A DNA stretch of 64,000 bases from contig NZ_CP137734.1 in NCBI RefSeq assembly GCF_033406955.1, positions 4,588,001 through 4,652,000 on the forward strand, read 5' to 3'. The notes under the pieces are model-generated. The model had not been told where the DNA came from. It ran no database searches and saw only the letters and a list, made by a program, of their open reading frames with translations. The DNA is from Streptomyces violaceoruber. GTDB lineage: Bacteria; Actinomycetota; Actinomycetes; Streptomycetales; Streptomycetaceae. This document shows, piece by piece, positions 4,051-64,000 of the stretch; position 1 is the stretch's first letter; every line of letters begins with the position of its first letter. A program made the position numbers and the translations under genes.

Positions 4051-5496
4051 TCAGGCGCCCGGCTCGGGCAGCTCGGGTCGGCCGGTGGCCAGGCGTGCCC
4101 CGATGTCCCGCAGGCCCGCGAGGTCGTGCACGTCGCCGGGCAGCGCGGCCACCTCGGTGACCGCGACCTCGGGATGACGCGCGGTGAAGCGGTCACGCGT
4201 GCGCTGCTCGCGGGCGAGCAGGTGCATGCGCTCCGCGTGCAGCCGCAGCAGGGCAGCGGCGAGCGCGTCGACCGACCGCTCCGCCGTGTCGGAAACCTCG
4301 GGTGAGGTGTCGGAAGCCTCGGGAGAGGCGGCGGAGGCCCCGGGTGAGGTGTCGGGGGCCGAGTCGCCGGGTTCGGAGTCGGCCGGTCCTGAACTGCCGT
4401 ACGTGTCGGGAGAGTTGCCGGAAGAGGTACGAAGTCCAGCTTTCCCGCCGTCCTGATCCACAATGCGGGGATCCTCAAGATTTTCCGCGGCGGCGAGTGC
4501 CCGCTCGGCCGACAGGCGGTCGGCGCCGCTGCCGTGGACCCGGTTGAGCACCAGACCGGCCAGCGGCATGTCCTCGGCCGCCAGCCGCTGAACGAAGTAC
4601 GCGGCCTCGCGCAGGGCGTCCCGCTCCGGGGCCGCGACCACCAGGAACGCCGTCCCGGGCGCCTGGAGCAGCTTGTACGTCGCGTCCGCGCGCGTCCGGA
4701 AGCCGCCGAACATCGAGTCCATCGCGGCCACGAAGGTCTGCACGTCCTTGAGGAACTGCCCGCCCAGCACCTTCCCCAGGACGCCGGTCATCATCGACAT
4801 GCCGACGTTCAGGAACTTCATCCCGGCCCGGCCGCCGACCTTCGCCGGGGCCAGCAGGACGCGGATCAGCTTGCCGTCCAGGAAGGAACCGAGACGCTTG
4901 GGGGCGTCCAGGAAGTCCAGCGCCGAGCGGGACGGCGGCGTGTCGACGACGATGAGGTCCCACTCGTCCCTCGACCGCAGCTGCCCCAGCTTCTCCATCG
5001 CCATGTACTCCTGCGTGCCCGCGAAGCCCGCCGAGAGCGACTGGTAGAAGGGGTTGCCCAGGATCGCCGCCGCCCGTTCGGGATCCGCGTGGGACTCGAC
5101 GATCTCGTCGAAGGTCCGCTTCATGTCGAGCATCATGGCGTGCAGCTCGCCGCCCGCCGAGTCGTCGACGCCCTTCACCCGGCGCGGGGTGTTGTCGAGC
5201 GAGTCGATGCCCATGGACTGCGCCAGCCGCCGGGCCGGGTCGATGGTGAGGACGACCACCTTGCGGCCGCGCTCGGCCGCCCGCAGGCCCAGGGCCGCGG
5301 CCGTGGTCGTCTTGCCGACCCCGCCCGAACCGCAGCACACCACGATGCGGTTGTGCGGGTCCTCCAGCAGGGCGTCGACGTCGAGCACGCGCGCGGGGGT
5401 CAGGCGGCGCGCGCCCTCCTGGTGGCGGGCCCGGTCGCCCTTCTGGTGGCCGGCCGGGCTGCCCTTCTGGTGGCGGGCCGGGTCGTCCGGACTCAT
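4051..5496 (-). CDS. ArsA-like P-loop ATPase, second of a pair
   Basis: A 481-residue ATPase of the ArsA/GET3 class with a complete deviant P-loop GSGGVGKTTT (near 56-65) and the Walker B-like LIVVDTPPS. ATG 5496 overlaps the TGA of the upstream ATPase (ATGA), so the two are translationally coupled and may act as a heterodimer. The N-terminus has three 8-residue repeats around HQKG/HQEG (residues 7-30). A Ser/Asp/Glu/Pro-rich linker (encoded around 4290-4420) interrupts the C-terminal part. Homologues are conserved next to wblA in actinobacteria; no substrate is established. An arsenite or tail-anchored-protein role is not implied, since no CxC-type metal site is seen. Confidence 0.9.
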   Translation of the reverse strand: MSPDDPARHQKGSPAGHQKGDRARHQEGARRLTPARVLDVDALLEDPHNRIVVCCGSGGVGKTTTAAALGLRAAERGRKVVVLTIDPARRLAQSMGIDSLDNTPRRVKGVDDSAGGELHAMMLDMKRTFDEIVESHADPERAAAILGNPFYQSLSAGFAGTQEYMAMEKLGQLRSRDEWDLIVVDTPPSRSALDFLDAPKRLGSFLDGKLIRVLLAPAKVGGRAGMKFLNVGMSMMTGVLGKVLGGQFLKDVQTFVAAMDSMFGGFRTRADATYKLLQAPGTAFLVVAAPERDALREAAYFVQRLAAEDMPLAGLVLNRVHGSGADRLSAERALAAAENLEDPRIVDQDGGKAGLRTSSGNSPDTYGSSGPADSEPGDSAPDTSPGASAASPEASDTSPEVSDTAERSVDALAAALLRLHAERMHLLAREQRTRDRFTARHPEVAVTEVAALPGDVHDLAGLRDIGARLATGRPELPEPGA

Positions 5497-18261: not shown

Positions 18262-20216
<1,955 letters not shown>

Positions 20217-53110: not shown

Positions 53111-53184
53111 GCCGCCTTAGCTCAGATGGCCAGAGCAACGCACTCGTAATGCGTAGGTCTCGGGTTCGAATCCCGAAGGCGGCT
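53111..53184 (+). tRNA. tRNA-Thr (anticodon CGT)
   Basis: A 74-base cloverleaf. The acceptor stem GCCGCCT/AGGCGGC is perfect, the anticodon stem ACGCA/TGCGT frames loop CTCGTAA with anticodon CGT (reads ACG), and the T-arm is CGGGTTCGAATCCCG. CCA is not encoded. An integrase gene pointing back toward it lies 98 bases downstream, so its 3' half is the likely integration site of the mobile element. Confidence 0.97.
53144..53184. other. Inferred left attachment site (attL) in tRNA-Thr
   Basis: Tyrosine integrases commonly recombine in the anticodon-to-3'-end part of a tRNA gene and rebuild it. The integrase gene is adjacent and in the usual orientation. No second copy of GTTCGAATCCCGAAGG was found up to 64000, so attR must lie beyond the window and the exact core is unknown. 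Confidence 0.45.
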
Positions 53185-53219
53185 CAGAGATAAACCCGCT
53201 GGTCAACGGCGGTACGCGA

Positions 53220-53252
53220 CAGGCCCCCTCCAAGATCGCTGGAGGGGGCCTG
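53220..53252. terminator. Hairpin between tRNA-Thr and integrase
   Basis: CAGGCCCCCTCCA (53220-53232) and TGGAGGGGGCCTG (53240-53252) form a perfect 13-bp stem. It can stop transcripts from either side. Confidence 0.85.
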
Positions 53253-53281
53253 TACGCATTTAGTACACGCTGGTTTGATCA

Positions 53282-54481
53282 CTAGGCGTCGGTGAGCGAC
53301 GCATCCGCAAGCGCCAGTGCGACCTTCCGTCCGGCGTCGAGCGCATCCGCGACCTCGTCCAGCCGATCCGGGAACAGGTGCCCGTAGATGTTCAGCGTCA
53401 TCGACGCATCCTTGTGCCCGAGCATCAGCTGAACGACCTTCACGTCCGCGCCGGCCGCGATCGCCAGGGACGCGGCCGTGTGCCGCAGCTTGTGCGGCGT
53501 GATGCCCAGTCCGGACAGCCCCGCCTCCTTCACCGCGGGATCGAACACCCGCGAGCGGAAGTTGGCGTACCTGAGCGGCCCGCCCTCCGGCGCCGTGAAC
53601 AGCAGCCCGTCAGACAGCTTGCCTTGGGCGAGCGTGCCCAGCTCGTCGGCAAACGACCGGGGGAGCGGCACAGAGCGCTTCTCGTGGTTCTTCACTGGCC
53701 CCAGCGCGAGCACGCCGGAGACGTCGGTGTAGTTCTGCACGATCCGGATGCGCCGCTTCGGCACCGACAACCGGCCCGCTTTCACCGCGGACGCCTCCGC
53801 CCAGCGGATCCCGCAGTACCCCAGGGTGAGGATCAGCAGCCGATACTCGCCGGCCGCCAGGGCGAGCCGCTCCAGCTGGTCGTAGGTGAGGTAGACGTGC
53901 TCGTCCTCGTCGTCCGGCCGAGGCAGCTCGTGGTCGTGGCACGGGCTGACGGCTGCACGCTTGGAGAACACGGCGTGTTTCATCACCATCGCCAGCACCC
54001 GGTAGGCCTTGATGATGCGGGCCGCGCCCAGCGTGCGGCCGGACTTTCCCGGCTTCGTCTCCAGCTCGGTGAGCCACGTGTTCACGTCCTCCCACTGGAC
54101 GGCCGCGACCTGCCAATCCCCCCACTTCGGGATCACGTAGTTGTCGAGCAGATCGCGGTAGTCCCGCTTCGTGGTCCGGCCGATCTTGCGTTTCGACTCG
54201 TACCACTCCTCAGCGACGATTCGCACGGCCGTCTTCCCCGACCTCGGGTCACGGTAAGAGCCCTTGTCGAGTCGCGCGGTGATCGCGTCCTTCTCCGCCT
54301 CGGCCCGCGGCAGCTTCCCGAAGGTCTTCGCCTTCGGCTTTCCGTCGGGCCCGTACCAGCGGACCCGCCACCGGCCGGGCGCCTGCCGCTTACTGCCCTC
54401 GCGCTTCGCTGCCTGCCAGCGCTCCATCGCCTCCCGGTAGTCGGCGTGGTTCGCCCGGTCCTCAATCCACACTCGGGCCAT
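53282..54481 (-). CDS. Tyrosine integrase of the mobile element
   Basis: A 399-residue phage-type recombinase. An N-terminal arm-binding part is followed by a SAM-like core-binding domain (KRDYRDLLDNYVIPKWGDW) and a catalytic domain with R226 (GIRWAE), H330 and R333 (PHKLRH), H356 (LGHKDAS) and Y366 (LNIYGH), so all residues for recombination are present. ATG 54481 lies inside the end of the XRE gene (20-base overlap), so the two are co-expressed. Target inferred as the adjacent tRNA-Thr. Confidence 0.96.
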   Translation of the reverse strand: MARVWIEDRANHADYREAMERWQAAKREGSKRQAPGRWRVRWYGPDGKPKAKTFGKLPRAEAEKDAITARLDKGSYRDPRSGKTAVRIVAEEWYESKRKIGRTTKRDYRDLLDNYVIPKWGDWQVAAVQWEDVNTWLTELETKPGKSGRTLGAARIIKAYRVLAMVMKHAVFSKRAAVSPCHDHELPRPDDEDEHVYLTYDQLERLALAAGEYRLLILTLGYCGIRWAEASAVKAGRLSVPKRRIRIVQNYTDVSGVLALGPVKNHEKRSVPLPRSFADELGTLAQGKLSDGLLFTAPEGGPLRYANFRSRVFDPAVKEAGLSGLGITPHKLRHTAASLAIAAGADVKVVQLMLGHKDASMTLNIYGHLFPDRLDEVADALDAGRKVALALADASLTDA

Positions 54482-54992
54482 CTGTGTGTCCCTCCTCGTC
54501 CTTCAAGCGGTACTGCCTGAGCAGCGCCTCCATCTCGCGCAGCCCACGTCGGGGCGGCCTGGCGTTCTGGATGAACTCTCGCTGCGCCTGGAAGTCGTCT
54601 TCAGCCTTCGGGGCGCTGAATAGCTGTACCTCTCCGTCGGCCCACTCCCAGAGCCGCGAGGCGGTCATGCGCACCTCGCCGCCGTCTGTGTGCTTGCCCG
54701 GCATGAGGTCCACGATCGTGGTCGGTGAGTCGTCCCGTGGCAGCAGCAGCGCCGACGGGTTCACGTTGAGGACGACGGACAGGGCAACCAAGTCGCCGGC
54801 GTCTACGCGCCGTTCTTCCCTCTCCACCTTGGCCACGGCCGACGGGCTGATCGGCCGGCCAGCCTCTTTGAGCTTTCGCGCGAGGTCGTAGGTGGACCAC
54901 CCGTGCGCTTCTCGGATGCGTCGGACGTTGGCGGCCACGTTGCGCCCCGCCAGGTCGGTGATCTGCGTTTTCGGTCGGGTCTCGTCGCTCAT
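54462..54992 (-). CDS. XRE-family regulator, probable element repressor
   Basis: A 176-residue DNA-binding protein. The N-terminal HTH is VAANVRRIREAHGWSTYDLARKL, then PISPSAVAKVEREER; the C-terminal 90 residues are not recognised. ATG 54992 is preferred because the HTH then starts about residue 18; the longer frame upstream enters the promoter region. It precedes and overlaps int and diverges from the xis-like gene, the layout of a lysogeny switch. GCGAGTC direct repeats just upstream may be its operators. Confidence 0.88.
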   Translation of the reverse strand: MSDETRPKTQITDLAGRNVAANVRRIREAHGWSTYDLARKLKEAGRPISPSAVAKVEREERRVDAGDLVALSVVLNVNPSALLLPRDDSPTTIVDLMPGKHTDGGEVRMTASRLWEWADGEVQLFSAPKAEDDFQAQREFIQNARPPRRGLREMEALLRQYRLKDEEGHTDGPSVD

Positions 54993-55056
54993 GCGAGTCA
55001 CTTTACGACACAAGCGAGTCGTCAACATTCCCGCGCTGTCTGCTACTGTCCTGCTC
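54993..55056. promoter_or_regulatory. Divergent switch region between XRE regulator and xis-like gene
   Basis: GCGAGTC occurs at 54993-54999 and 55014-55020, exactly 21 bp (two turns) apart. TACTGT (55044-55049) is a good plus-strand -10 box 7 bases before an in-frame ATG at 55057, so the xis transcript may be leaderless from that ATG. Confidence 0.4.
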
Positions 55057-55110
55057 ATGGCTCTACTATCGGGTCGTTCGAATCGGAAAGCAACTCAAAC
55101 GAGGTGCGAA

Positions 55111-55317
55111 GTGACCAGCGATCTGCTCACACCGAGGCAGGTGCAGACGGAGTACGGGTTCTCCCCGCAGACGCTTGCGAACTGGCGTTGGAGCGGTACC
55201 GGCCCCGACTACATCAAGACCAGCCCCGGCCGCGGCGGGCGCATCAGGTACAGGCGCAGCCGCATCGAAGCGTGGCTGTCCGCGCAGTCGGTGACCGTCG
55301 GAGGCAACGCGGCATGA
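55111..55317 (+). CDS. Excisionase-like HTH protein
   Basis: A 68-residue winged-helix protein of the HTH_17/AlpA-Xis type: LLTPRQVQTEYGFSPQTLANW, then GRGGRIRYRRSRIEAWL, with the sequence order expected of element excisionases. GTG 55111 follows GAGG; ATG 55057 would add 18 residues and fits a leaderless start. Its stop overlaps the ATG of the next gene. It opens the plus-strand operon that runs to the helicase. Confidence 0.85.
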   Translation: MTSDLLTPRQVQTEYGFSPQTLANWRWSGTGPDYIKTSPGRGGRIRYRRSRIEAWLSAQSVTVGGNAA

Positions 55318-55580
55318 ACGGAAACGACGAGACCCGCCAGGGGCAAACTGGCGGGTCTCAGAAGAAGCTCGCTGCGGGCGAGGCTGCCGCCATCGTGGCA
55401 CAGCCAACGATGCCGTGCTACGCCGACCCACAGCGCAAGCCACTGACCTGCGGCACCTACGGGCTCTCGTCGTGGGAGCTGCGGGCCGAAGCGCGGCGCC
55501 TGCTCTTCGAGCGTGGCTGGCAGCTCTGGGAGGTCGCCGCGCGGCTGGCCCTCCCTCGCCCGGGACGGGGGCGGTCGTGA
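55314..55580 (+). CDS. Hypothetical 88-residue element protein
   Basis: No known family. It has a Gln/Gly-rich start (MNGNDETRQGQTGGSQKK), a PCYADPQRKPLTCGTYG segment with two cysteines, and a helical C-terminus (WELRAEARRLLFERGWQL). ATG and GTG overlaps tie it on both sides to the xis-like and prim-pol genes, so it is very probably translated. Confidence 0.65.
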   Translation: MNGNDETRQGQTGGSQKKLAAGEAAAIVAQPTMPCYADPQRKPLTCGTYGLSSWELRAEARRLLFERGWQLWEVAARLALPRPGRGRS

Positions 55581-56464
55581 GCGACTGGAACGACGCGCTC
55601 AACGGAGCGCTGCAGGCCGCCGAGATGCTCGGCTTCGAGGTCATCCCGCTGTCCGTGCGCAAGCTGCCCGCCATCCGTTCGCCGCACCAGGCTGGGCACG
55701 GGTGCCGGGGCGAGTGCGGCCAGCTCGGGCACGGCATCCACGATGCCAGCGCCGACCCCGACCGCATCCGAGCCATGTTCAACATGGTCCGTCACGCCAC
55801 CGGCTACGGCATCGCCTGCGGTCGGCCGCCGTGGCACCTGATCGGCCTTGACCTCGACCGGAAGAACGGCATCGATGGTGTGTGGGAGCTGCGCAAGCTG
55901 GCTGCGCAGCATCGCATCACCCTGCCTCGCACGGTCATCATCGCCACTCCGTCCGGCGGCTACCACGCGTGGTGGACGGGCCCGGCCGGGGTCAAGGTCC
56001 CGAACCGCGCGGGGCACATGGCCCGTGGCGTCGACGTCCGCGGGTCTGGCGGGTATCTCGTCGGCCCGGGCTCCCGCAGCACCCGCGGGTTGTACACCCT
56101 CGCCTCCGACCCGGACAACGTCAGCGTGCAGCCGGTGCCCGACAAGCTGCTGCAGCTCATGACCGCTGGGAAGGACCGGCCCGCGCGACGTCCGGTCACA
56201 GCTCGGAGCGGGCGGGCGGCCAGTGGCGGGCAGCTGCTCGTCGGCCTGGTCACGTTCGTCCTTGACTCCGGGCAGGGACAGCGGAACGACCGTCTGTTCT
56301 GGGCCGCGTGCAAGGCGTTCGAGCATGCGGCGGCCGGCCGTCTCGACGCGGACTCGGCAGAGAACGCACTCATGCAGGCCGCCGCCGTGGTCGGCCTGCC
56401 CGACAGGGAAGCCGAGGCCACCGTTCGGTCGGCCCGCGGCGACGTACTGGGAGCCGCGAAGTGA
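55577..56464 (+). CDS. Bifunctional DNA primase/polymerase (prim-pol)
   Basis: A 295-residue archaeo-eukaryotic-type primase. The catalytic acids are in GLDLDRKNG (D92, D94), followed by TPSGGYHAWW and the RGSGGYLVGPGS strand, the standard prim-pol triad. These proteins start and extend DNA for plasmid-like or viral replication. GTG 55577 overlaps the upstream stop. The last four bases overlap the helicase gene, so both form one replication module. Confidence 0.93.
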   Translation: MSDWNDALNGALQAAEMLGFEVIPLSVRKLPAIRSPHQAGHGCRGECGQLGHGIHDASADPDRIRAMFNMVRHATGYGIACGRPPWHLIGLDLDRKNGIDGVWELRKLAAQHRITLPRTVIIATPSGGYHAWWTGPAGVKVPNRAGHMARGVDVRGSGGYLVGPGSRSTRGLYTLASDPDNVSVQPVPDKLLQLMTAGKDRPARRPVTARSGRAASGGQLLVGLVTFVLDSGQGQRNDRLFWAACKAFEHAAAGRLDADSAENALMQAAAVVGLPDREAEATVRSARGDVLGAAK

Positions 56465-58284
56465 CGACCAGCAAGGACCAGGCCCGCGAGATCGTCGAAG
56501 GTGCGGGCGTTGAGGTGGAGAAGGGCCGTGGCCCCTCGCAGGCCTCACAGCTCGTCGCCCTCGCACGCGAGCGATACGACCTGTTCATGTCGGAGGACGG
56601 CCGCCCCTACGGCGTGAAACAGGACGGCGCGAACATCGCCCTCCCCCTGCGCGGAAAGGCCGGCCTGCGTTCGCAGCTGGCCCGCATCTTCACCGACAGC
56701 AACAACGGTTCGGTGCCCTCCCAGTCGGCCCTCGCCGACGCCATGACCGTACTGGAAGGTGTCGCGCAGGACGCTGACCCGCGCGTTCCGCACGTTCGCG
56801 TGGCCCGTGACGGCGCCCGGATCGTCGTCGACCTGGCGGACGCCGACGGTCGGTGCGTCGTCATCGGCCCCGATGGCTGGGAGCGAGCCGCGCGCTCCCC
56901 GGTCCTGTTCCGCCGCTCCGGCGCCATGAAACCGCTGCCCGCGCCAGTCCGCGACGGCGACGGCCTGGCCAACCTCCGCGGCATGCTCAACACCGACGAC
57001 GAGGGGTTCCGCCTCCTCGTCGGCTGGCTCGTCGCCGCGTTCATCCCCGACCTGCCGCACCCCATCCTCACCTTCCGGGGCGAGCAGGGCACCGGCAAGT
57101 CGTACTCCGCGAAGATGGTCATCGGAATCGTCGACCCGTCCGGCGCACCGAAGCGGACCGCGCCCCGGGACATCAAGTCGTGGGCCACGCAGGCCTTCAA
57201 CTCGTGGGCACTCTGCCTCGACAACGTGTCGATCATCGCCGACTGGCTGTCCGATGCACTGTGCCGGGCGGTCACCGGTGACGGCATCGTCGACCGCGCC
57301 CTGTACACCGACGATGACGTCGTCGTCCTTGAGTTCCGCCGCGTTCTCGCCATGACGACGATCGACGCCGGAGCGCTCGCCGGGGACCTCGCCGAGCGGC
57401 TGCTGACCATCGAACTCCACACGATCCCGGACCGCCGGCGCCGCGAGGAAGCCGAGTTGGACGCGGCCTACGCCGACGCTCACCCCGGCATCCTCGCCTC
57501 CCTCTTCGACCTGCTCGCCGAAGTCCTCCGCGTCCTGCCCGACGTGCAGCTGGAAGAACGGCCCCGCATGGCCGACTTCGCCCGAGTCCTCGCCGCCGTC
57601 GACAAGGTCCAGGGCTGGAACACCCTGGAGAGCTACAAGGCAACGGCCCGGGACGCGGTCGCCGACGTCCTCGAAGGTGAGCCGTTCGCCCAGGCCGTCG
57701 TCGCGCTTGTCGACCGAGCGGGTGCGGACGGGCTCACCCTCACGGCTTCGGAGCTGCTGGAGCGTGTGGTCACTCCGGACCGGCTGCCGAAGAAGTGGCC
57801 GAAGGACCCGACGCGGGCAGGCGGGCAGCTCAAGCGCCTCGCCCCGGCGCTGAGGACGATCGGGATTGAGGTCGACGACAGCAAGCGCGGGCCGAAGCCG
57901 AAGAAGCAGCGGCTGTACACGCTGACAGCGTCAGCGGAGAGAAGGTACGAAACAGCGTCCCCAGCGTCCCCCAACACCTCCGAAACCCACGCTGACGTGC
58001 AGGAACAAGGGGGACGCTACAGGGGGGACGCTAGCGGTCCCCCGTCCGCTCGGGGGGACGCTGGGACCGCTCGGGGGGACGCTGCCCCGACGACAGCGTC
58101 CCCCCAGCGCATCGCCTCTGACCTGCGCGGACCCTCACGGGGGACCGCTGGGACCGCTGGGACCGCTGGAATGCACCCACTCTCGCCTGACGCCCATCCC
58201 AAGACGCCGTGCGCCGACTGCGGCCGCATGCAGTGGAACGCGCTCGGCTCCCCCCTCTGCCTCGACTGCCGCGACGCGGCCTAG
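56461..58284 (+). CDS. Replication helicase/ATPase with C-terminal zinc ribbon
   Basis: A 607-residue protein. The central ATPase has FRGEQGTGKS (Walker A, K213) and LCLDNVS as Walker B, in the style of phage D5/SF3 or DUF927-type replicative helicases paired with prim-pol. The N-terminal 150 residues resemble the domain that recruits the primase. A disordered Gly/Ala/Thr/Pro linker (encoded 57950-58170) carries iteron-like DNA repeats. It ends with a zinc ribbon CADCGRM...CLDC. GTG 56461 overlaps the primase stop. Confidence 0.88.
   Translation: MTTSKDQAREIVEGAGVEVEKGRGPSQASQLVALARERYDLFMSEDGRPYGVKQDGANIALPLRGKAGLRSQLARIFTDSNNGSVPSQSALADAMTVLEGVAQDADPRVPHVRVARDGARIVVDLADADGRCVVIGPDGWERAARSPVLFRRSGAMKPLPAPVRDGDGLANLRGMLNTDDEGFRLLVGWLVAAFIPDLPHPILTFRGEQGTGKSYSAKMVIGIVDPSGAPKRTAPRDIKSWATQAFNSWALCLDNVSIIADWLSDALCRAVTGDGIVDRALYTDDDVVVLEFRRVLAMTTIDAGALAGDLAERLLTIELHTIPDRRRREEAELDAAYADAHPGILASLFDLLAEVLRVLPDVQLEERPRMADFARVLAAVDKVQGWNTLESYKATARDAVADVLEGEPFAQAVVALVDRAGADGLTLTASELLERVVTPDRLPKKWPKDPTRAGGQLKRLAPALRTIGIEVDDSKRGPKPKKQRLYTLTASAERRYETASPASPNTSETHADVQEQGGRYRGDASGPPSARGDAGTARGDAAPTTASPQRIASDLRGPSRGTAGTAGTAGMHPLSPDAHPKTPCADCGRMQWNALGSPLCLDCRDAA
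57954..58103. repeat. Seven GGGGACGCT repeats in both orientations, iteron-like
   Basis: AGCGTCCCC at 57954, 57963 and 58095; its complement GGGGACGCT at 58010, 58024, 58054 and 58075. They lie inside the linker-coding part of the helicase gene. Three further tandem GGGACCGCT units are at 58141-58167. Confidence 0.75.
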
Positions 58285-58293
58285 GAGACGCGC

Positions 58294-58482
58294 ATGCCGA
58301 CGACCCCGACCCCGATCCGGGCGCACTGCCCGTCCTGCCGCGGCCCGCGGCCTGTCCGCCGGGTCGGCACGGCCACTGTCCGGGGCGAGCAGCGCGACCT
58401 CCTGGAGTGCCGCGACACGGCGTGCGAACTCGTCTGGGCCCACCGCGCCGACCCCCGACCGGCCGCCAACCCGGCGGCCTAG
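58294..58482 (+). CDS. Small zinc-ribbon-like protein
   Basis: A 62-residue protein with C-P-S-C (HCPSCRG) and, 24 residues later, LECRDTACELVW, giving four cysteines for zinc. AGGAGACGC stands just before ATG 58294. Such small ribbons are common in phage-like regions; no function can be assigned. Confidence 0.7.
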   Translation: MPTTPTPIRAHCPSCRGPRPVRRVGTATVRGEQRDLLECRDTACELVWAHRADPRPAANPAA

Positions 58483-58490
58483 GAGACAAC

Positions 58491-58811
58491 ATGGAGAACA
58501 CCCGTACACCCAACGAGCCACCGGCAGGCGTCGCCCTCGACAGCGACGCAGTCCGCCGGGTGGCCGCCCTGATCACCGCCGGACTACACGCGCCGACCGC
58601 ACCCGACCAGCGGCGCACCGACCCCGTGCTGCGGGCCGCCTACGGCGACGCCCTGTTCCGGGCGACCGCGTGCGTGCCGGTCCTCGTCCACCTGGTCGGC
58701 GTGCTGCTGCACGACCTGGCCGCCGCCCGGCAGACGACGGCGGCCGAGCTGTGGGCGTCGCGCGCCGTCGGCACGGCCGCGCTCCTGGAGGAAGGGGGGC
58801 CCCGTGGCTGA
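58491..58811 (+). CDS. Hypothetical 106-residue protein before the tape measure gene
   Basis: An all-helical protein with a hydrophobic stretch (ACVPVLVHLVGVLLHDLAAA). AGGAG lies before ATG 58491 and the 3' end overlaps the tape-measure start by 8 bases, so translation is coupled. In tailed phages this place is held by the tail assembly chaperones, but no resemblance or slippery frameshift site is visible. Confidence 0.65.
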   Translation: MENTRTPNEPPAGVALDSDAVRRVAALITAGLHAPTAPDQRRTDPVLRAAYGDALFRATACVPVLVHLVGVLLHDLAAARQTTAAELWASRAVGTAALLEEGGPRG

Positions 58812-61713
58812 GCGCCTCACCTTCACCCTCACGGGCCGCGACGAACTGTCGCGCGTCCTCAACGGCACCGGCGACAGCGCCGACCGGCTCCGGCTCCGGC
58901 TGTCCGGGATCACCCAGGACGCCGACGGCAACCTGCGCGACTTTCAGGGTCGCCTGCTCACCGTGGACGAGGCGCAGCGCCGTCTCCTGTCCACCACCGA
59001 GGGCACCCGCGACGCCTTCGGCCGCCTCCGCGACGAGACCGACAAGGTCGGCGAGTCCCTCCGAGCGAACCTGATCAGCCTGCTGCCCGCCGCGATCCCG
59101 GCCGCCGCTGGGCTGGCGTCGTCGGCCGCCGCCGTCGCTGCCCAGTTCGGGGCGGTTGCCGTGGCGGCCGGCGCCTACGCTCTCGCCCTCGGGCCGCAGA
59201 TCGGGAAGATCGGCGAGGCTGCGGACGCGCAGGCGAAGTACGAGGATGCGCTGCGCACCTCCGGCTCGGGCAGCGCCGAGGCCGGAGCCGCCGCCCTGGA
59301 GTACGAGCGGCAACTGGCCGGGCTGCCGCCCGCCACCCGGGAGGCCGCGGTTGCGGTCGGCCTGCTCAAGGACTCCTCCCAGGAGTGGTCGGACAGCCTG
59401 TCCGGCGACGTGATGGGCCCGTTCATCAAGGGCGTCGGCGTCACCAACGCGCTACTCCCGAAGACGACAGGGCTCGTGAAGGGGGCGAGCAGCCAGTTCG
59501 ACCGGCTCATCACCATGGTGGCCGGCGGTATCAGTACGCCCGGGTTCGACGCGATGAACCAGCGGTTCACCAACTTCGCGAACGACACCCTCGACAACGG
59601 CATCGACAAGCTGGCTCTGTTCCTGGCCAAGCTGGACGCTGGCGAGTTCAACGGTGGTGGCGTAGCCGAGTTCTTCGACTGGGCACAGGAGCAGGGCCCG
59701 GTCGTGTGGGACACGCTGGAGAACGTGGGCGACGCCCTGCTCAACGTCCTCGAAGCCGGGGCCGACGTCGGCGTCGGCATGCTGGACGTGGTCAACGTGT
59801 TGTCCGACATCGTGAGCGCGGTACCGCCCGACGCGATCGCCACGATCCTGCAGCTGGCCATCGCCATCAAGGCCGTGCGCCTGGCGGCGGCCGGCGGTGC
59901 GGCGGCCAGTGCGGGGATCGCCGCGATCGCCACGCAGGTCGGTGCGATGCGCGTCGCAGCGAGCGGTGCACCCGGTGTGCTCGCCGGAACCGCTGCCGCG
60001 ATCGGTACCCTGTCCCGCACCGCCAAGCTGGCCGTCGCGGGGACCGGGATCGGCCTCCTCGTCCTTGCCCTCACCGAGCTGTCCGACATCGGCGAACCGG
60101 CGTCGCTGGACGTCGACAAGCTCACCACCTCCCTCGGCGAACTCGGACGCACAGGCAAGGCCACCGGCTACGTGGCCAGCCAGTTCGGCGACGACTTCGG
60201 GAAGCTGCGCGAGCAGATCCAGAAGGTCATCGATCCCAGCGTGGCCGAGAGCGTCAACAACTGGGGCGCCGACATCACCAACGGTCTCCTGGATGCCGGC
60301 GACGCCACCGAGACGTTCACCAAGAGCGTCGATGCCATCGACGAGGGCCTGGCCGATCTGGTCAGCGGCGGCAAGGCCGAGCAGGCGGCGGCGGCGCTGG
60401 AGGCGATGAAGGAGGGCATGAGCCCCGAGCAGGTGGAGAAGTTCACCGGCTCCCTGGACAACTACCGGGAAGCCCTCGCCGCGCAGGCTTTCGAGCAGCG
60501 GCTGGCCGCCGACAGCATGGGCATCTTCGGGGACCAGGCCCTCGAAGTGCAGGCCCAGCTCGACGCGCAGAAGCAGAGCGCCGACGGACTGCGGCAGAGC
60601 ATCCTCGCCCTCAACGACGCCAACCGGTCGGCGTATGACGCGCAGATCGGGTTCGAGGCCAGCATCGACGCGCTCACCGAGAGCTTCAAGGAGAACGGGG
60701 CGACGCTCGATCTGAACTCGGAGAAGGGCCGCGAGAACGGCCAGGCCATGTCGGCGGCGGCGAAGGCGCACGACGAGATGCTTGCGTCCGGGCTGGCGGC
60801 CGGCGAGTCGCTGGGGTCGATGACGGCGAAGTCGGAGCAGCTCCGGGCGAAGATGGTGGAGCTGGCCTCGCAGACCGGCATGACCGACGCCGAGGCCCGC
60901 GAGTACGTCAGCACGCTGCTCGGCACGCCGGACAGCATCCGGACCACGGTGGAGCTGGAGAAGCAGGAGGCGATCGAGGGCCTGGTCGCTGTCCAGACCG
61001 AGATCGACCGGACGCCGAACAGTCACACGGTCACCGTGGACACCCTGAACGCCGCGGCGATCCGAGCCCTGGAAGCGGTCGGGCTCAAGACGAGGCGGCT
61101 GCCTGACGGGCGCACCGAGGTGTTCACGGCGAACAAGTCGGCGCTCGGCAACATCGGCGCCGTCGACAAGGCGCTGCGTGAGCTGGACGGGAACAACGCG
61201 ACCACCACGATCACGACGATTCGCATGACGATCTTCAAGCAGGTTCAGGCTGCGGGCGGCTCCAACCAGGCAGCGAAGAACGCGGCCGAGCTGGGCTACG
61301 CCGGGGGCGGCCTGATCCGGCGGGCGCAGGGCGGGCCCATCCCAGGCTTCCCCAGCGGAGGACGTCTGTACGGGCCGGGGACACCGACCTCGGACAGCAT
61401 GCTGCTCTGGGGGTCGACCGGTGAGTACATGGTGCGGGCGTCGGCCGTCGACGAGTACGGCCAGGCGGTCTTCGACGCGCTCAACGACCGGCAGCTGGAC
61501 GCGTCAGCGCTGGCTGCTCTCGTCGCGCCCTCGGGCCGGGCCGCAGTGACACCGGGCAGGCCAGCCGAGGGGGCCGGCCGGGGCCGCGTTGACCAGCCCA
61601 GCGTGACGAACAACTACACCTACAACGTCCGCAAGTCCGTCATCGACCTCCAGGACCTGCGGCTGCTGCAGCGGCAGGAAGAGGCCCGCATGCGCGTCGG
61701 CCGGCCCCGGTAG
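58804..61713 (+). CDS. Phage tail tape-measure protein
   Basis: A 969-residue protein that sets tail length in siphophages and helps eject DNA. Coiled-coil segments at the start (residues 1-85) are followed by hydrophobic stretches (LLPAAIPAAAGLASSAAAVA; ATILQLAIAIKAVRLAAAGG; KLAVAGTGIGLLVLALTEL), long helical coils, and the C-terminal tape-measure signature FPSGGRLYGPGTPTSDSMLL with GEYMVRASAVDEYG. By the family rule of about 0.15 nm per residue it would match a tail near 145 nm. It is intact. No other tail, portal or capsid gene is visible in this element. Confidence 0.9.
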   Translation: MAERLTFTLTGRDELSRVLNGTGDSADRLRLRLSGITQDADGNLRDFQGRLLTVDEAQRRLLSTTEGTRDAFGRLRDETDKVGESLRANLISLLPAAIPAAAGLASSAAAVAAQFGAVAVAAGAYALALGPQIGKIGEAADAQAKYEDALRTSGSGSAEAGAAALEYERQLAGLPPATREAAVAVGLLKDSSQEWSDSLSGDVMGPFIKGVGVTNALLPKTTGLVKGASSQFDRLITMVAGGISTPGFDAMNQRFTNFANDTLDNGIDKLALFLAKLDAGEFNGGGVAEFFDWAQEQGPVVWDTLENVGDALLNVLEAGADVGVGMLDVVNVLSDIVSAVPPDAIATILQLAIAIKAVRLAAAGGAAASAGIAAIATQVGAMRVAASGAPGVLAGTAAAIGTLSRTAKLAVAGTGIGLLVLALTELSDIGEPASLDVDKLTTSLGELGRTGKATGYVASQFGDDFGKLREQIQKVIDPSVAESVNNWGADITNGLLDAGDATETFTKSVDAIDEGLADLVSGGKAEQAAAALEAMKEGMSPEQVEKFTGSLDNYREALAAQAFEQRLAADSMGIFGDQALEVQAQLDAQKQSADGLRQSILALNDANRSAYDAQIGFEASIDALTESFKENGATLDLNSEKGRENGQAMSAAAKAHDEMLASGLAAGESLGSMTAKSEQLRAKMVELASQTGMTDAEAREYVSTLLGTPDSIRTTVELEKQEAIEGLVAVQTEIDRTPNSHTVTVDTLNAAAIRALEAVGLKTRRLPDGRTEVFTANKSALGNIGAVDKALRELDGNNATTTITTIRMTIFKQVQAAGGSNQAAKNAAELGYAGGGLIRRAQGGPIPGFPSGGRLYGPGTPTSDSMLLWGSTGEYMVRASAVDEYGQAVFDALNDRQLDASALAALVAPSGRAAVTPGRPAEGAGRGRVDQPSVTNNYTYNVRKSVIDLQDLRLLQRQEEARMRVGRPR

Positions 61714-61754
61714 ACCACCCCACCCGACCAGCACTCACAGAACGGAACCACCAC

Positions 61755-62540
61755 ATGACCGAGAACCGAGCAGGGCGAGGCACCTTCGGCAACCGCGGTG
61801 CCCGCGAGTACGCCGCCCCCGGCGACCAGCGCGACCAACACGTGCCCGCCGGAGCATGCGGTGCCGTCTTCGACCGCCCCGCCGCTCTCCGCGACGCCCG
61901 CTCACAGGTCCCCTGCACCCGGCCCAAGGGCCACACCGGCACCCACGAGAACGACCGCGGCATGTCCTGGGGCGCCCGCACCACCACAACACCCACCCGC
62001 CGCACTACCCCGAACAGGAGCACCCCCATGAACGTCACCCAGCTCAGGGCCCGCATGCGCCAGCTCGAAGCCACCCACATCAACCCCACGCCCACCCGGA
62101 GCGGGGCGCCGACGGCCGTCAGCCGCCCGGTCAACGGCCCCCTCGCCCAGGCCCGTCGCGCGGTCACCCTGGCCCGCAAGGTGCCCTACGGCGGGTTCCT
62201 CCCCAGCCAGGCCGACCGCGGCCTGCGCGACCTGGCCAACGCGGCCAGCGAACTCCTGCGGCTTGCCGACACCAAGTGGGGCAGTGGCGGGCCCAGCTGC
62301 CGGCAGACCCGCGTCTACCTCGCGAACCGCGTCGCCAGCCTCCGCTCAGTCTGGGCAGTCCCGAGCACCACGCCCCCCGCCTTCCGCCACGAGGACGTGC
62401 AGGAGATGGCGTCGGCCGTCAGCGACCTCCTCGAAGCCCTGGAGAGCCAGCACCGCGTCGACAGCCTCGCCCGCACGCGACTCACCGAGTCGGTGACCGC
62501 CGGGCCCGACCCCGTCCCGGCCCTGCACCCCTGGGGCTGA
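61755..62540 (+). CDS. Hypothetical protein with CTRPKGHTGTH zinc-like motif
   Basis: A 261-residue protein in two parts. The first about 85 residues include CGAVF and CTRPKGHTGTHEN, a C/H pattern seen in short Streptomyces zinc motifs, then a Thr/Pro-rich linker. The rest is helical (LAQARRAVTLARKV; LRDLANAASELLRL; EDVQEMASAVSDLLEALES). No known function. ATG 61755, 41 bases after the tape-measure stop; the terminator at 62562 ends the operon. Confidence 0.65.
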   Translation: MTENRAGRGTFGNRGAREYAAPGDQRDQHVPAGACGAVFDRPAALRDARSQVPCTRPKGHTGTHENDRGMSWGARTTTTPTRRTTPNRSTPMNVTQLRARMRQLEATHINPTPTRSGAPTAVSRPVNGPLAQARRAVTLARKVPYGGFLPSQADRGLRDLANAASELLRLADTKWGSGGPSCRQTRVYLANRVASLRSVWAVPSTTPPAFRHEDVQEMASAVSDLLEALESQHRVDSLARTRLTESVTAGPDPVPALHPWG

Positions 62541-62561
62541 GGGACCAGGCGTAACGCTGGA

Positions 62562-62589
62562 GGGCTGGCCGCACGGTAGCGGCCAGCCC
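62562..62589 (+). terminator. Terminator after the element's late operon
   Basis: GGGCTGGCCGC-ACGGTA-GCGGCCAGCCC, an 11-bp stem 22 bases past the stop. Confidence 0.85.
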
Positions 62590-62838
62590 TTCGGCATGCC
62601 CGCACCGGCACCAGTGTGGCGGACGCCGACCCGATGCCACCCGTCTCGGAGGGGCCGCCATGGGAGAGGACCGTAGCCCCGTCGCCCGCGGGCACGGCCC
62701 ACACCGGAGCCGCGGGCCTGGTGACACAGCGTCGCTGAGCGCTGCGAACGCAGCGTGAACAACGCTCGCGAACGCTCGTCGGCGCGGCTCCGATCATGAT
62801 CAACAGGGGGAGAGTGGGTCCAAAGTCCGGCGTCTGCC

Positions 62839-62873
62839 CGGGCGACCCAAAAGCCCTTGTCGCCCGTTTTTTT
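62839..62873 (+). terminator. Classical intrinsic terminator with seven Ts
   Basis: CGGGCGAC (62839-62846), a 12-base loop, GTCGCCCG (62859-62866), then TTTTTTT. A full U-tract is rare in Streptomyces. No gene stands directly before it, so it implies an unannotated plus-strand transcript. Confidence 0.8.
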
Positions 62874-62890
62874 GCGCGGCTTCGATTCAA

Positions 62891-62971
62891 GATCACTTCA
62901 CGCGAACCGAGTTCGACCCATTTAGCGATGGTTACGCTGCGTTACGTCACCCTGCGTGAAGGGAAGTGATC
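62891..62971. repeat. Long inverted repeat with inner GTTACG repeats
   Basis: GATCACTTCACGC (62891-62903) is matched by GCGTGAA-GGG-AAGTGATC (62954-62971), the right arm carrying 5 extra bases. Between them GTTACG occurs at 62931 and 62941, 10 bp apart. Confidence 0.6.
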
Positions 62972-63421
62972 ACTGGCGCCCGAGTGGCGCGATCACGGTC
63001 GAGCTTGTCAAGCTCGGCGCCGACGATACCGCCCCTGGCCTCGGAGAACTAGCCCTAGACGTCGCCCGGTTCACGCTGGGAGCGGCCCTGCGGCCTCCAG
63101 GGCGGCGGCCTGCCGAGGCTACACGCAGTGACGGGCGGTCTCAACGGTCCAGCTGCCGCCGGCGCTGCGGCCCGCCGTGCCCGTCCCTGCGGTGGCCGGA
63201 CGCGGGCCTGCCCCGAGCACGCTGGCTCGCTGCCACAGACCCCCCCTACGGCGAGGCTGGGTACGGTCCGTGCGGTGCGCGGGCGCCGCCGATCACCCTG
63301 GGGTGTCAGGACCCGACGGTGCCGGGGCCGTCATGCCCGATGTCAGGCTGCGTGACACCCGCTCCCGCCTAGGGGGATGGGTGTCACGGCTCGCCTGACG
63401 TCAGTCAGTGGAGCGCCCTCC

Positions 63422-63495
63422 GTAGAGGGGCCCCTCTACCCCGGTAGCGGGGCGGGTAGTGCCCTCCAGCCTGCGGAGTAGAGGGGGTAGAGGGG
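63422..63495. repeat. GTAGAGGGG repeats including a perfect 18-bp palindrome
   Basis: GTAGAGGGG-CCCCTCTAC (63422-63439) is a perfect palindrome; two more direct copies of GTAGAGGGG follow at 63478 and 63487. No protein coding is seen here. Confidence 0.7.
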
Positions 63496-63617
63496 GTCCG
63501 GCCTGGGCCTACGAAACCCGAAACTGCGCAGGCCAGCCCCGACATCGGGGGCGAAACCGGTTTCGGCCGGAGGCGATACCGGCTCGCCTGCCGAACCCGG
63601 CCTGCAGCACGGTGTGC

Positions 63618-64000
63618 TCACGCCGTGCAGGCGGCGCTCCTGGCCTTCCGGTAGGCGTCGTGCAGGTGGTCGCGCGTCCCGCAGGAGACGCCGGCGTTGC
63701 GGCCCGTCTCGTCGACGGCCCGGCAGGACGCGCAGGCGGCCCCGTGCTCGAGGAGCCGCCGGTACGCGGTGTCCGGGTCCGGCTCGTCGCACGGCGGCGT
63801 GAGGCTGACGTAGTGGTCGCAGAGCGCGGCGAGGGACCGGGCGAGCTTGTGCGCGTACCGCAGGGCGGCGTCCTGCCCGGTGCCCGGTCCGGCCCGGAGC
63901 TTCCCGCCGGCCTCGCCGACGCAGGCGAGTGCGCAGTACCGGGGCACGTCGTCTTCGGGGAGCCGGGCGGCGAGCGCGGCGACGTCGGGGGCGAGGACGG
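63618..64000 (-). CDS. Cysteine-rich hypothetical protein, 5' end outside the window
   Basis: The reading frame is open from 64000 down to the stop at 63618; the GTG at 63947 is probably internal. Visible: an ALAARLPEDDVPRYCALACV segment like Streptomyces DUF6415 proteins, a helical core (HKLARSLAALCDHYVSL), and four cysteines in the tail (ACASC, SCGT and the C-terminal AACTA) that may bind metal. Orientation is opposite to the element's late genes. The DUF6415 likeness is from memory. Confidence 0.6.
   Translation of the reverse strand, partial: VLAPDVAALAARLPEDDVPRYCALACVGEAGGKLRAGPGTGQDAALRYAHKLARSLAALCDHYVSLTPPCDEPDPDTAYRRLLEHGAACASCRAVDETGRNAGVSCGTRDHLHDAYRKARSAACTA

Follow-up and report, generated by a model that had tools for sequence, protein, structure and literature searches.

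The window, a 64,000-nucleotide stretch of the Streptomyces violaceoruber chromosome (G000:C1:4588001-4652000; genome 8.63 Mb, one contig), carries near its right end an integrative element inserted at a tRNA-Thr gene, which we read as a probable phage satellite that encodes its own tape measure protein (TMP). The analysis covers the part of the window right of ~52 kb and the extended stretch L009 (G000:C1:4640500-4659500; L009 position = window position - 52499), inside which the whole element lies. A preliminary description had proposed a satellite-like element at tRNA-Thr, a proposal that the analysis supports, and its right end was not visible there. The last 43 bp of the tRNA gene (window 53143-53185) are repeated with 43 of 43 identities at G000:C1:4656199-4656241, 4.2 kb past the window end; this second copy delimits an element of 15,099 bp between the 43-bp repeats (L009 644-15742). 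The features up to it are listed here with their strands, lengths in amino acids (aa) and best family matches.

53111..53185 (+): tRNA-Thr(CGT), the attachment site gene, left intact by the element (ARAGORN)
53143..53185 (+): attL, 43-bp core; exact copy (attR) at G000:C1:4656199-4656241
53282..54481 (-): tyrosine integrase, 399 aa; PF00589 7.7e-21, phrog_1 1.5e-57
54462..54992 (-): XRE-type regulator, overlapping int; HTH_3 5.9e-8; start codon picked by eye
55111..55317 (+): excisionase-like HTH_17 protein, 68 aa; PF12728 2.3e-9, phrog_66 9.4e-10
55314..55580 (+): g4, 88 aa; 83% in L011
55415..56464 (+): primase-polymerase (prim-pol) open reading frame (ORF), longest frame; PF09250 2.2e-30, Prim-Pol domain at residues 65-243
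56461..58284 (+): P-loop ATPase, 607 aa, probable replicative helicase; P-loop seen by eye; 42% to plasmid 'ATP-binding proteins'
58294..58482 (+): g7, 62 aa, zinc-ribbon-like by eye; 90% in L011
58491..58811 (+): g8, 106 aa, its last 8 bp inside the TMP gene; 92% in L011; model all-helical and of low confidence
58804..61713 (+): TMP, 969 aa, intact; four tape-measure PHROGs, best 4.9e-9; the only virion gene recognised
61755..62540 (+): g10, 261 aa (170 aa from an inner start); no significant family match
62702..63137 (+): 440-bp block, proposed cos region; 81% identity to the sequence preceding the terminase genes in prophage L013 of S. tendae
62839..62866 (+): cos core CGGGCGACCCAAAAGCCCTTGTCGCCCG, inside the window, between the TMP and the right-hand genes
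62983..63069 (+; L009 10484-10570): start-less small-terminase fragment, 29 aa; residues 5-33 of the L013 small terminase (TerS), 69%
63618..64000 (-; runs past the window end, L009 11119-11661): g11, DUF6415 protein; PF19979 4.3e-30
L009 11844-15421 (outside the window): other genes to attR

The integrase and the overlapping XRE-type gene lie on the minus strand, and the xis-like gene, g4, prim-pol, the P-loop ATPase, g7, g8, the TMP gene and g10 on the plus strand; after g10 comes a 1.1-kb gap and then g11, two helix-turn-helix genes (g12 and g13), an HNH gene and DUF6907 genes. Pfam and PHROG matches bore out the earlier assignment of an integrase beside tRNA-Thr with an overlapping XRE gene and a xis-like gene, and the integrase translation shows, by eye, the R, HxxR, H and Y residues. 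In the proposed coupled module of prim-pol and helicase, the Prim-Pol domain (PF09250) is present and the chosen start of the ATPase overlaps the prim-pol stop by 4 bp, whereas the putative helicase (56461-58284) has no significant Pfam or PHROG match and its P-loop was recognised by eye only. The ATPase resembles 'ATP-binding proteins' of Streptomyces plasmids (42% identity), and the two proteins give the element a replication module of its own.

Pfam and PHROG scans covered 20 ORFs, in which no virion or packaging family other than the TMP rose above noise. A tblastn search of L009 with a reference set (terminase, portal, protease, capsid, tail tube, chaperone, distal tail, small terminase and FtsK) matched the TMP and the small-terminase fragment only, and family scans and tblastn recognised no virion gene among the right-hand genes up to attR. 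The reference genes, from L012-L014, were named by gene order and by match to the annotated records L060 and L061, partly without a family scan; the chaperone and distal tail genes were named by position. FtsK gave no Pfam match among the 20 ORFs and no tblastn match in L009 to four FtsK references. The earlier statements that portal, terminase, capsid and FtsK-like Tra genes are absent hold up to attR within these searches, the start-less 29-aa fragment being the only terminase sequence found; a related element (L066) and a plasmid (L059), described below, do have an FtsK-like protein.

The tape measure protein and the cos-like site

By tblastn, 108 records of the phage collection match the TMP. 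Many of the shorter matches are annotated tape measures of actinophages, and the longest, which covers 68% of the query at 37%, is to an uncharacterised Streptomyces phage ZL12 protein, in agreement with the intact 969-residue TMP that had been described. Close relatives are found in the Streptomyces prophages L012, L013 and L014, where terminase, portal, protease and capsid genes lie upstream, and the L009 TMP is 75% identical to that of L013. It is 83% identical to the TMP of a second element, L011, with no stops and a ratio of nonsynonymous to synonymous substitution rates (dN/dS) of 0.29 over 963 codons; by 100-codon window, this ratio is 0.08-0.20 in the first seven windows and 0.51-0.86 in the last three. 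The two proteins are mosaics: residues 1-600 of L009 are like L011 (88-97% in 100-residue windows), and in the windows from 600, 700 and 800 its identity is 93, 96 and 85% to L013 versus 88, 66 and 54% to L011.

Three further candidate satellites with a TMP entered the comparison with phages, namely the element L066 and the plasmids L058 and L059. The five satellite TMPs are 67-84% identical to the nearest phage TMP, with pairwise dN/dS of 0.28, 0.29, 0.36, 0.36 and 0.43, and in four of the five pairs the lengths are at most 4 aa apart (satellite/phage 969/968, 964/968, 872/876 and 1361/1362). The ranking behind these pairs drew on 36 loci, 31 of which gave a TMP ORF (none in L137, L138, L140, L141 or L144); with the five TMP satellites and two unclear loci (L064 and L015) set aside, 24 phage or viral-contig TMPs were left for the comparison, some of them from contigs without a virion reference match. 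In a 27-row TMP tree, which omitted L068, L069, L128 and L143, the satellites are nested among phages in at least three places, with long-branch warnings near L066/L065 with L060 and near the L058 group with L015.

Behind the TMP gene, the block at L009 10203-10638 aligns with L013 1095-1532 (81% identical). In the prophage, the block starts before the small terminase gene (1364-1642) and extends into it, and the large terminase (TerL) starts at 1578. L009 shares the 28-mer at its core, without a mismatch, with five prophage loci (L012, L013, L014, L041 and L042), of which L014 and L041, both 16,770 bp, are probably one contig. With three mismatches allowed, a 20-mer of the core occurs once each in L009 (0 mismatches), L011 and L066 (1 mismatch each), the chance expectation being 0.01, 0.00 and 0.00, respectively. 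A 24-mer with at most two mismatches was found at 20 places in 18 of 295 genomes of the genus, and a reversed-pattern control gave 0. TerL lies downstream at 15 of these places, and the other five are in elements without a TerL match (G000, G034:C48, G248, G111 and G106). Two cores in one genome, at G134:C1:8778103 and 8818983, are 40.9 kb apart with TerL after each, and probably belong to two related prophages.

The estimated TerL start was downstream of the core in 46 of 46 chosen phage loci, which are not independent of one another, at 316-582 bp in 45 and at 1,023 bp in one. Twenty-eight of the 36 viral contigs with the core entered this count. Omitted from it were L111 and L114 (duplicates of the contigs L042 and L041, respectively, the core of L114 being close to its end), L096, L105, L116, L125 and L126 (no TerL match, the core being close to an end of the stretch), L097 (no TerL match, unexplained) and L136 (the second G134 prophage, TerL found). 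The annotated plasmid prophage L060 has its HNH gene on one side of the core and its terminase genes on the other. The Arthrobacter phages CallinAllBarbz and BaileyBlu, whose TerL is ~40% identical, have linear genomes with HNH at the right end and, after the cut, a small gene at 115-117 and TerL at 464-466; the genome thus ends at the place equivalent to the core. From its place and its conservation, we read the shared core and block as the putative cos site of a helper phage. As a sequence, then, a handle for helper packaging is present in the element, common to the packaging region of prophages, its function being judged from its place.

Two other assignments were considered and rejected. 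In most phage rows the core, an inverted 3' arm and a T-run look like a terminator (by eye, unfolded); an ordinary terminator was rejected, since L011 has lost the 3' arm of the hairpin and the T-run yet kept the core, and several phages vary there too. The product of g13 was rejected as a small terminase, its relatives in two prophages lying ~2.8-4.2 kb upstream of the cos core.

Related elements, plasmids and their phages

L011, in Streptomyces sp. CCM_MD2014, sits at tRNA-Arg(CCT) with an exact 43-bp repeat of its own (4482-4524 / 19259-19301) and is 14.8 kb long. It keeps the order int-xre-xis-g4-primpol...g7-g8-TMP...g11-g12-g13-HNH-g15-g16, with changed replication proteins, and neither L011 nor L058 has an FtsK match by tblastn. 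L066 (G034:C48, a 15,270-bp contig) has the same 43-bp tRNA-Thr repeat as L009 at both sides. Its genes are int (89-90%), xis and xre, those for prim-pol and a D5-type helicase, for FtsK and DUF2637 proteins and for a TMP of 872 aa; the core is present as well. The genome of L066 also has a prophage on C18 (L065, L145) with TerL, portal, capsid and tail genes and the core, and its 876-aa TMP is 75% identical to that of L066, the next phage by score being at 38%.

An integrase-anchored search found the family in 7 of 101 genomes, our own included, at E 1e-120 or better. Six of these elements have ends that were found: L009 and L066 carry TMP and core, L163 and L165 are small-terminase types, and L162 and L164 showed neither a virion gene nor a packaging handle among the ORFs scanned. 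L163 (15.3 kb) encodes a small terminase (PF05119) and a capsid protein (PF05065), and L165 (16.0 kb) a small terminase (phrog_1496) and a 1470-aa TMP; no single named helper was evident for either. The seventh, L166, showed no att repeat. A further type, represented by L130 (~9.0 kb) and L132 (~10.0 kb), lies between repeats at the 3' end of glnA (named by eye), and L131 is like them, its ends not found. These three have a replication module, an integrase distant from that of L009 (29-33%) and a major capsid protein shortly before the core (PHROG 1.2e-42 to 9.7e-62; PF05065 in L131 and L132). Within the reference set and the ORFs scanned, no element was found with both a TMP and a capsid gene.

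A plasmid branch also has TMPs. In S. chartreusis NBC_00851, the 21.6-kb plasmid L058 encodes a TMP of 1361 aa, the only virion gene found in it, and the 91.6-kb phage-plasmid L061 of that strain has terminase and capsid genes and a TMP of 1362 aa. Identity between these TMPs is 84%, and a run of ~300 codons (windows 900-1200) is identical throughout, its synonymous divergence (dS) being close to zero. In L058 8306-12391 versus L061 19353-23441, ~900 bp are identical including synonymous sites, the TMP genes having a dS of 0.3-0.8 otherwise; the identical block is a recent exchange, unless it is an effect of assembly. A comparable pair, L059 and L063, occurs in Streptomyces sp. JCM17656 (TMPs 69% identical), and by bit score the L059 TMP is slightly closer to L061 of the other strain than to L063.

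The end of the TMP sets this branch apart. Over the last 80 residues, identity to the co-resident phage is 51% versus 84% overall for L058 and 46% versus 69% for L059; the phages L061 and L063 agree with each other at 90% there, and the satellites L058 and L059 are ~79% identical to each other over the final full window. For satellites of the cos type, the identity of the last 80 residues minus overall identity is -0.04 to -0.11, and in phage-phage pairs of this type -0.15 to +0.10. C-terminal divergence was therefore rejected as a general mark of satellites, being present in the plasmid branch (two satellites) and not in the cos branch. ZL12-type phages have a common short motif in a gap between annotated genes (L061 30791, L036 21178, L063 12904); the phages' AGGGCGACCCTCCGCCC motif has no copy in the plasmids L058 and L059 with at most two mismatches. 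A chromosomal locus, L064 (G013:C1:4241000-4260900), encodes a TMP of 932 aa, a protein with weak likeness to FtsK, and an ATPase akin to that of L058; it gave no virion reference match, and its element ends were not found.

A candidate satellite with a phage-type TMP

Given its exact att repeats, a gene order shared with an element of another strain, a TMP that is intact, as long as in phages and for the most part under constraint, a block in common with phage packaging regions, and TMP pairs of satellite and phage in single strains, the element is probably an integrative phage satellite of the cos type that would use phage-made particles and its own TMP. Neither the cos-like site at 62839-62866 nor the satellite-phage pairs were part of the preliminary description. 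The following course is proposed. Int and xis would excise the element from tRNA-Thr, and prim-pol and the P-loop ATPase would replicate the excised circle. With a cos phage related to L013 in the same cell, the phage terminase would cut the satellite at its copied cos and fill phage-made heads with it, and, by analogy with the phage-inducible chromosomal island-like element (PLE) of Vibrio, the satellite TMP would be built into the tails of satellite particles in place of the phage TMP. Keeping the phage TMP length would leave tail length unchanged; the protein occupying the tube and passing into the next cell would be a different one, and the satellite might thereby be freed from TMP-directed blocks and be able to compete with the phage. 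Support for this use of the TMP comes from the PLE work, in which satellite TMPs were found in particles and tmp deletion lowered transduction by 96-99.9% (PMC12987554, available text).

We tentatively extend this to a group of Streptomyces satellites, for which we consider it possible, at somewhat less than an even chance, that each carries one swappable hijack cassette. The cassette would consist of a packaging handle (a helper-type cos or an own small terminase) and exactly one virion gene (for a TMP or for a major capsid protein), which would derive from the present helper and be kept in step with it, so that one part would be enough to claim the particles. In L163, the capsid protein in place of a TMP would presumably change the head. 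In the phage-plasmid branch, the satellite-type C-terminus of the TMP may decide which TMP enters which tail. That elements of one integrase family carry a TMP in one case and a capsid gene in another points to a possible one-part-suffices rule for satellites, and the natural pairs of near-identical TMPs make the segment that decides incorporation directly testable. Two TMP satellites share a genome or strain with the phage whose TMP matches best, and the core motif offers a simple probe for more satellites in Streptomyces.

Several observations weigh against the satellite reading. Only the element's own cos core and TMP were found in its genome, with no such helper, and G034 is the only satellite-helper pair seen with a common core; in the plasmids L058/L059 no cos-like site was found, the search for one shared with the phage-plasmids L061/L063 giving only scattered 15-18-mers. 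As to the cos assignment itself, the end sequence of CallinAllBarbz and BaileyBlu differs from the core. Among the 25 rows of TerL relatives, three records (two phages) have TerL less than 0.5 kb from the left end of a full genome, and the remaining listed ones have it at 2-7 kb, or 29.5 kb in REQ1. No named phage record in the phage collection matches the cos region beyond two partial, chance-level matches away from the ends, and the viral contig L097 (2543-2560) has an 18-mer of the core with no TerL match. The TMP is not fixed in the integrase family, L162 and L164 having no virion gene or packaging handle among the ORFs scanned. Pairwise dN/dS fails to part satellite from phage branches (0.41 in the phage pair L012/L013), the last TMP window reaches ~1.1 in L058/L061 and L059/L063, and TMP lengths in L059/L063 differ (1367 annotated or 1440 by ORF versus 1221, with uncertain starts). 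The FtsK_SpoIIIE matches in L066 and L059 may mean that part of the group is also conjugative. Finally, three phage references for the tail chaperone beside the TMP, named by position, have no match in L009, L011, L066, L058 or L059. This last point is tempered by g8, which could be a divergent, unrecognised tail chaperone; its AlphaFold model (mean predicted local distance difference test score, pLDDT, 63.8) is too poor to judge this, and relatives of g8 were absent from the viral contigs and limited to its own copy in 121 genomes of the genus.

Three other explanations were weighed. The TMP might be a weapon that joins phage tail assembly and spoils it, protecting the host whether or not the element is a satellite. 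Tail assembly is a known target of satellite defence (Tai, PMC11364771; Rta of PLE11, PMC12987554; available text of both), and the absence of a chaperone homologue with the TMP would fit such a role. So would the plasmid lineage, where the last 80 residues diverge from the co-resident phage (51% vs 84%; 46% vs 69%) while the phages stay 90% alike, and the final window has a dN/dS of ~1.1. Length would not have to be preserved in a spoiler, however, whereas four of five pairs agree within 4 aa with an overall dN/dS of 0.28-0.43; the TMP ends of the cos-type satellites fall inside the phage-phage range, and a nearby cos site would serve transfer, not defence. We regard this explanation as unlikely.

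A decayed prophage that lost its virion genes and kept the TMP and packaging region by accident is less probable still. The start-less small-terminase fragment beside the cos-like site does look like a deletion scar, and L162 and L164, of the same integrase family, have no virion gene found. Against decay, L011 shows the gene order too, in another strain and at another tRNA, and its TMP is 83% identical at a dN/dS of 0.29 and without stops; the att repeats are perfect in both L009 and L011; several element types each have one virion gene found; the replication ATPase is of a type common in Streptomyces plasmids; and satellite TMPs stand among phages at least three times in the tree.

An actinomycete integrative and conjugative element (AICE), or a conjugative plasmid, with a phage gene as cargo is just as improbable: prim-pol replication modules are present in AICEs, and FtsK_SpoIIIE scores above the Pfam cut-off in L066 (with DUF2637) and in L059, but L009, L011 and L058 have no FtsK match, FtsK-like (24-30% identity) and DUF2637 proteins also occur in phage-terminase loci of the same cos type, so that FtsK was rejected as proof of conjugation here, and a cos site has no known role in conjugation. 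AICEs such as pSAM2 do share with the element a tRNA site, int/xis and plasmid-type replication, whereas no FtsK/Tra protein was found in the element, which has a cos-like site and a virion gene instead.

As a satellite, the element is most readily compared with the PLE of V. cholerae, a likeness by description. Both are small integrative satellites with a TMP of their own; PLE tails are chimeras with phage parts, and tmp is kept across PLE variants (PMC12987554, available text, as for the PLE details that follow). All PLEs add a tail chaperone and some a baseplate hub, whereas the TMP is the only virion gene recognised here. The PLE TMP is 20% identical to that of the phage, with a length difference of 95 aa, versus 67-84% and matched lengths in four of five pairs here, and the PLE phage ICP1 is lytic with a contractile tail, while the phages here are prophages or phage-plasmids with presumably non-contractile tails. 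In addition, L009, L011 and L066 carry a phage-type cos-like site. The TMP elements belong to another phylum than PLE and have a TMP nearly the phage's own and mostly length-matched.

The Staphylococcus aureus pathogenicity islands (SaPIs) of the cos type with Ccm, such as SaPIbov5, are likewise ~14-kb satellites packaged via cos, with a helper ~3 times larger, and one HK97-type capsid homologue redirects their heads (PMC5052747, available text). By description they are closest to L130-132 and differ from L009 in host (Staphylococcus) and in having a capsid gene, not a TMP. A cos-like site of the helper type, as in cos SaPIs and phage-inducible chromosomal islands (PICIs), is present in L009, where cleavage is presumed, and tblastn found no Ccm-type capsid match there, capsid genes being present in L130-132 and L163. 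Putative tmp genes have been noted in capsid-forming PICIs (PMC12987554, available text); these carry a whole head and packaging set (PMC10690885, available text), unlike L009, in which tblastn found no own capsid, portal, protease or terminases and which has only the small-terminase fragment and an HNH gene. The Streptomyces phage satellites MulchRoom and MiniFlayer also have an HNH gene, but they carry terminase, portal and capsid genes, are without a primase and use virulent helpers; MiniFlayer has a tail fibre gene, and 'tape measure' is absent from the available text of PMC10690885. Of the complete or reduced prophage set (terminase, portal, capsid and tail genes between att sites), the element has only the TMP and the TerS fragment. 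No report of a Streptomyces satellite with a TMP was found in the open-licence PMC literature, preprints being outside that scope.

In relatives, the right flank of tRNA-Thr is too poorly syntenic to show an empty site. A second integrase in the genome, 51% identical to that of the element, lies with xis- and xre-like genes at G000:C1 ~4851286-4853327 (L010 11287-13328), with no virion gene by the reference set, and is near tRNA-Arg(CCT), the tRNA used by L011. Further pairs of tRNA-Thr 3' ends, at G011:C3:116803-133765 (~17 kb) and G003:C21:30714-50555 (~20 kb), mark other integrative elements at the same site.

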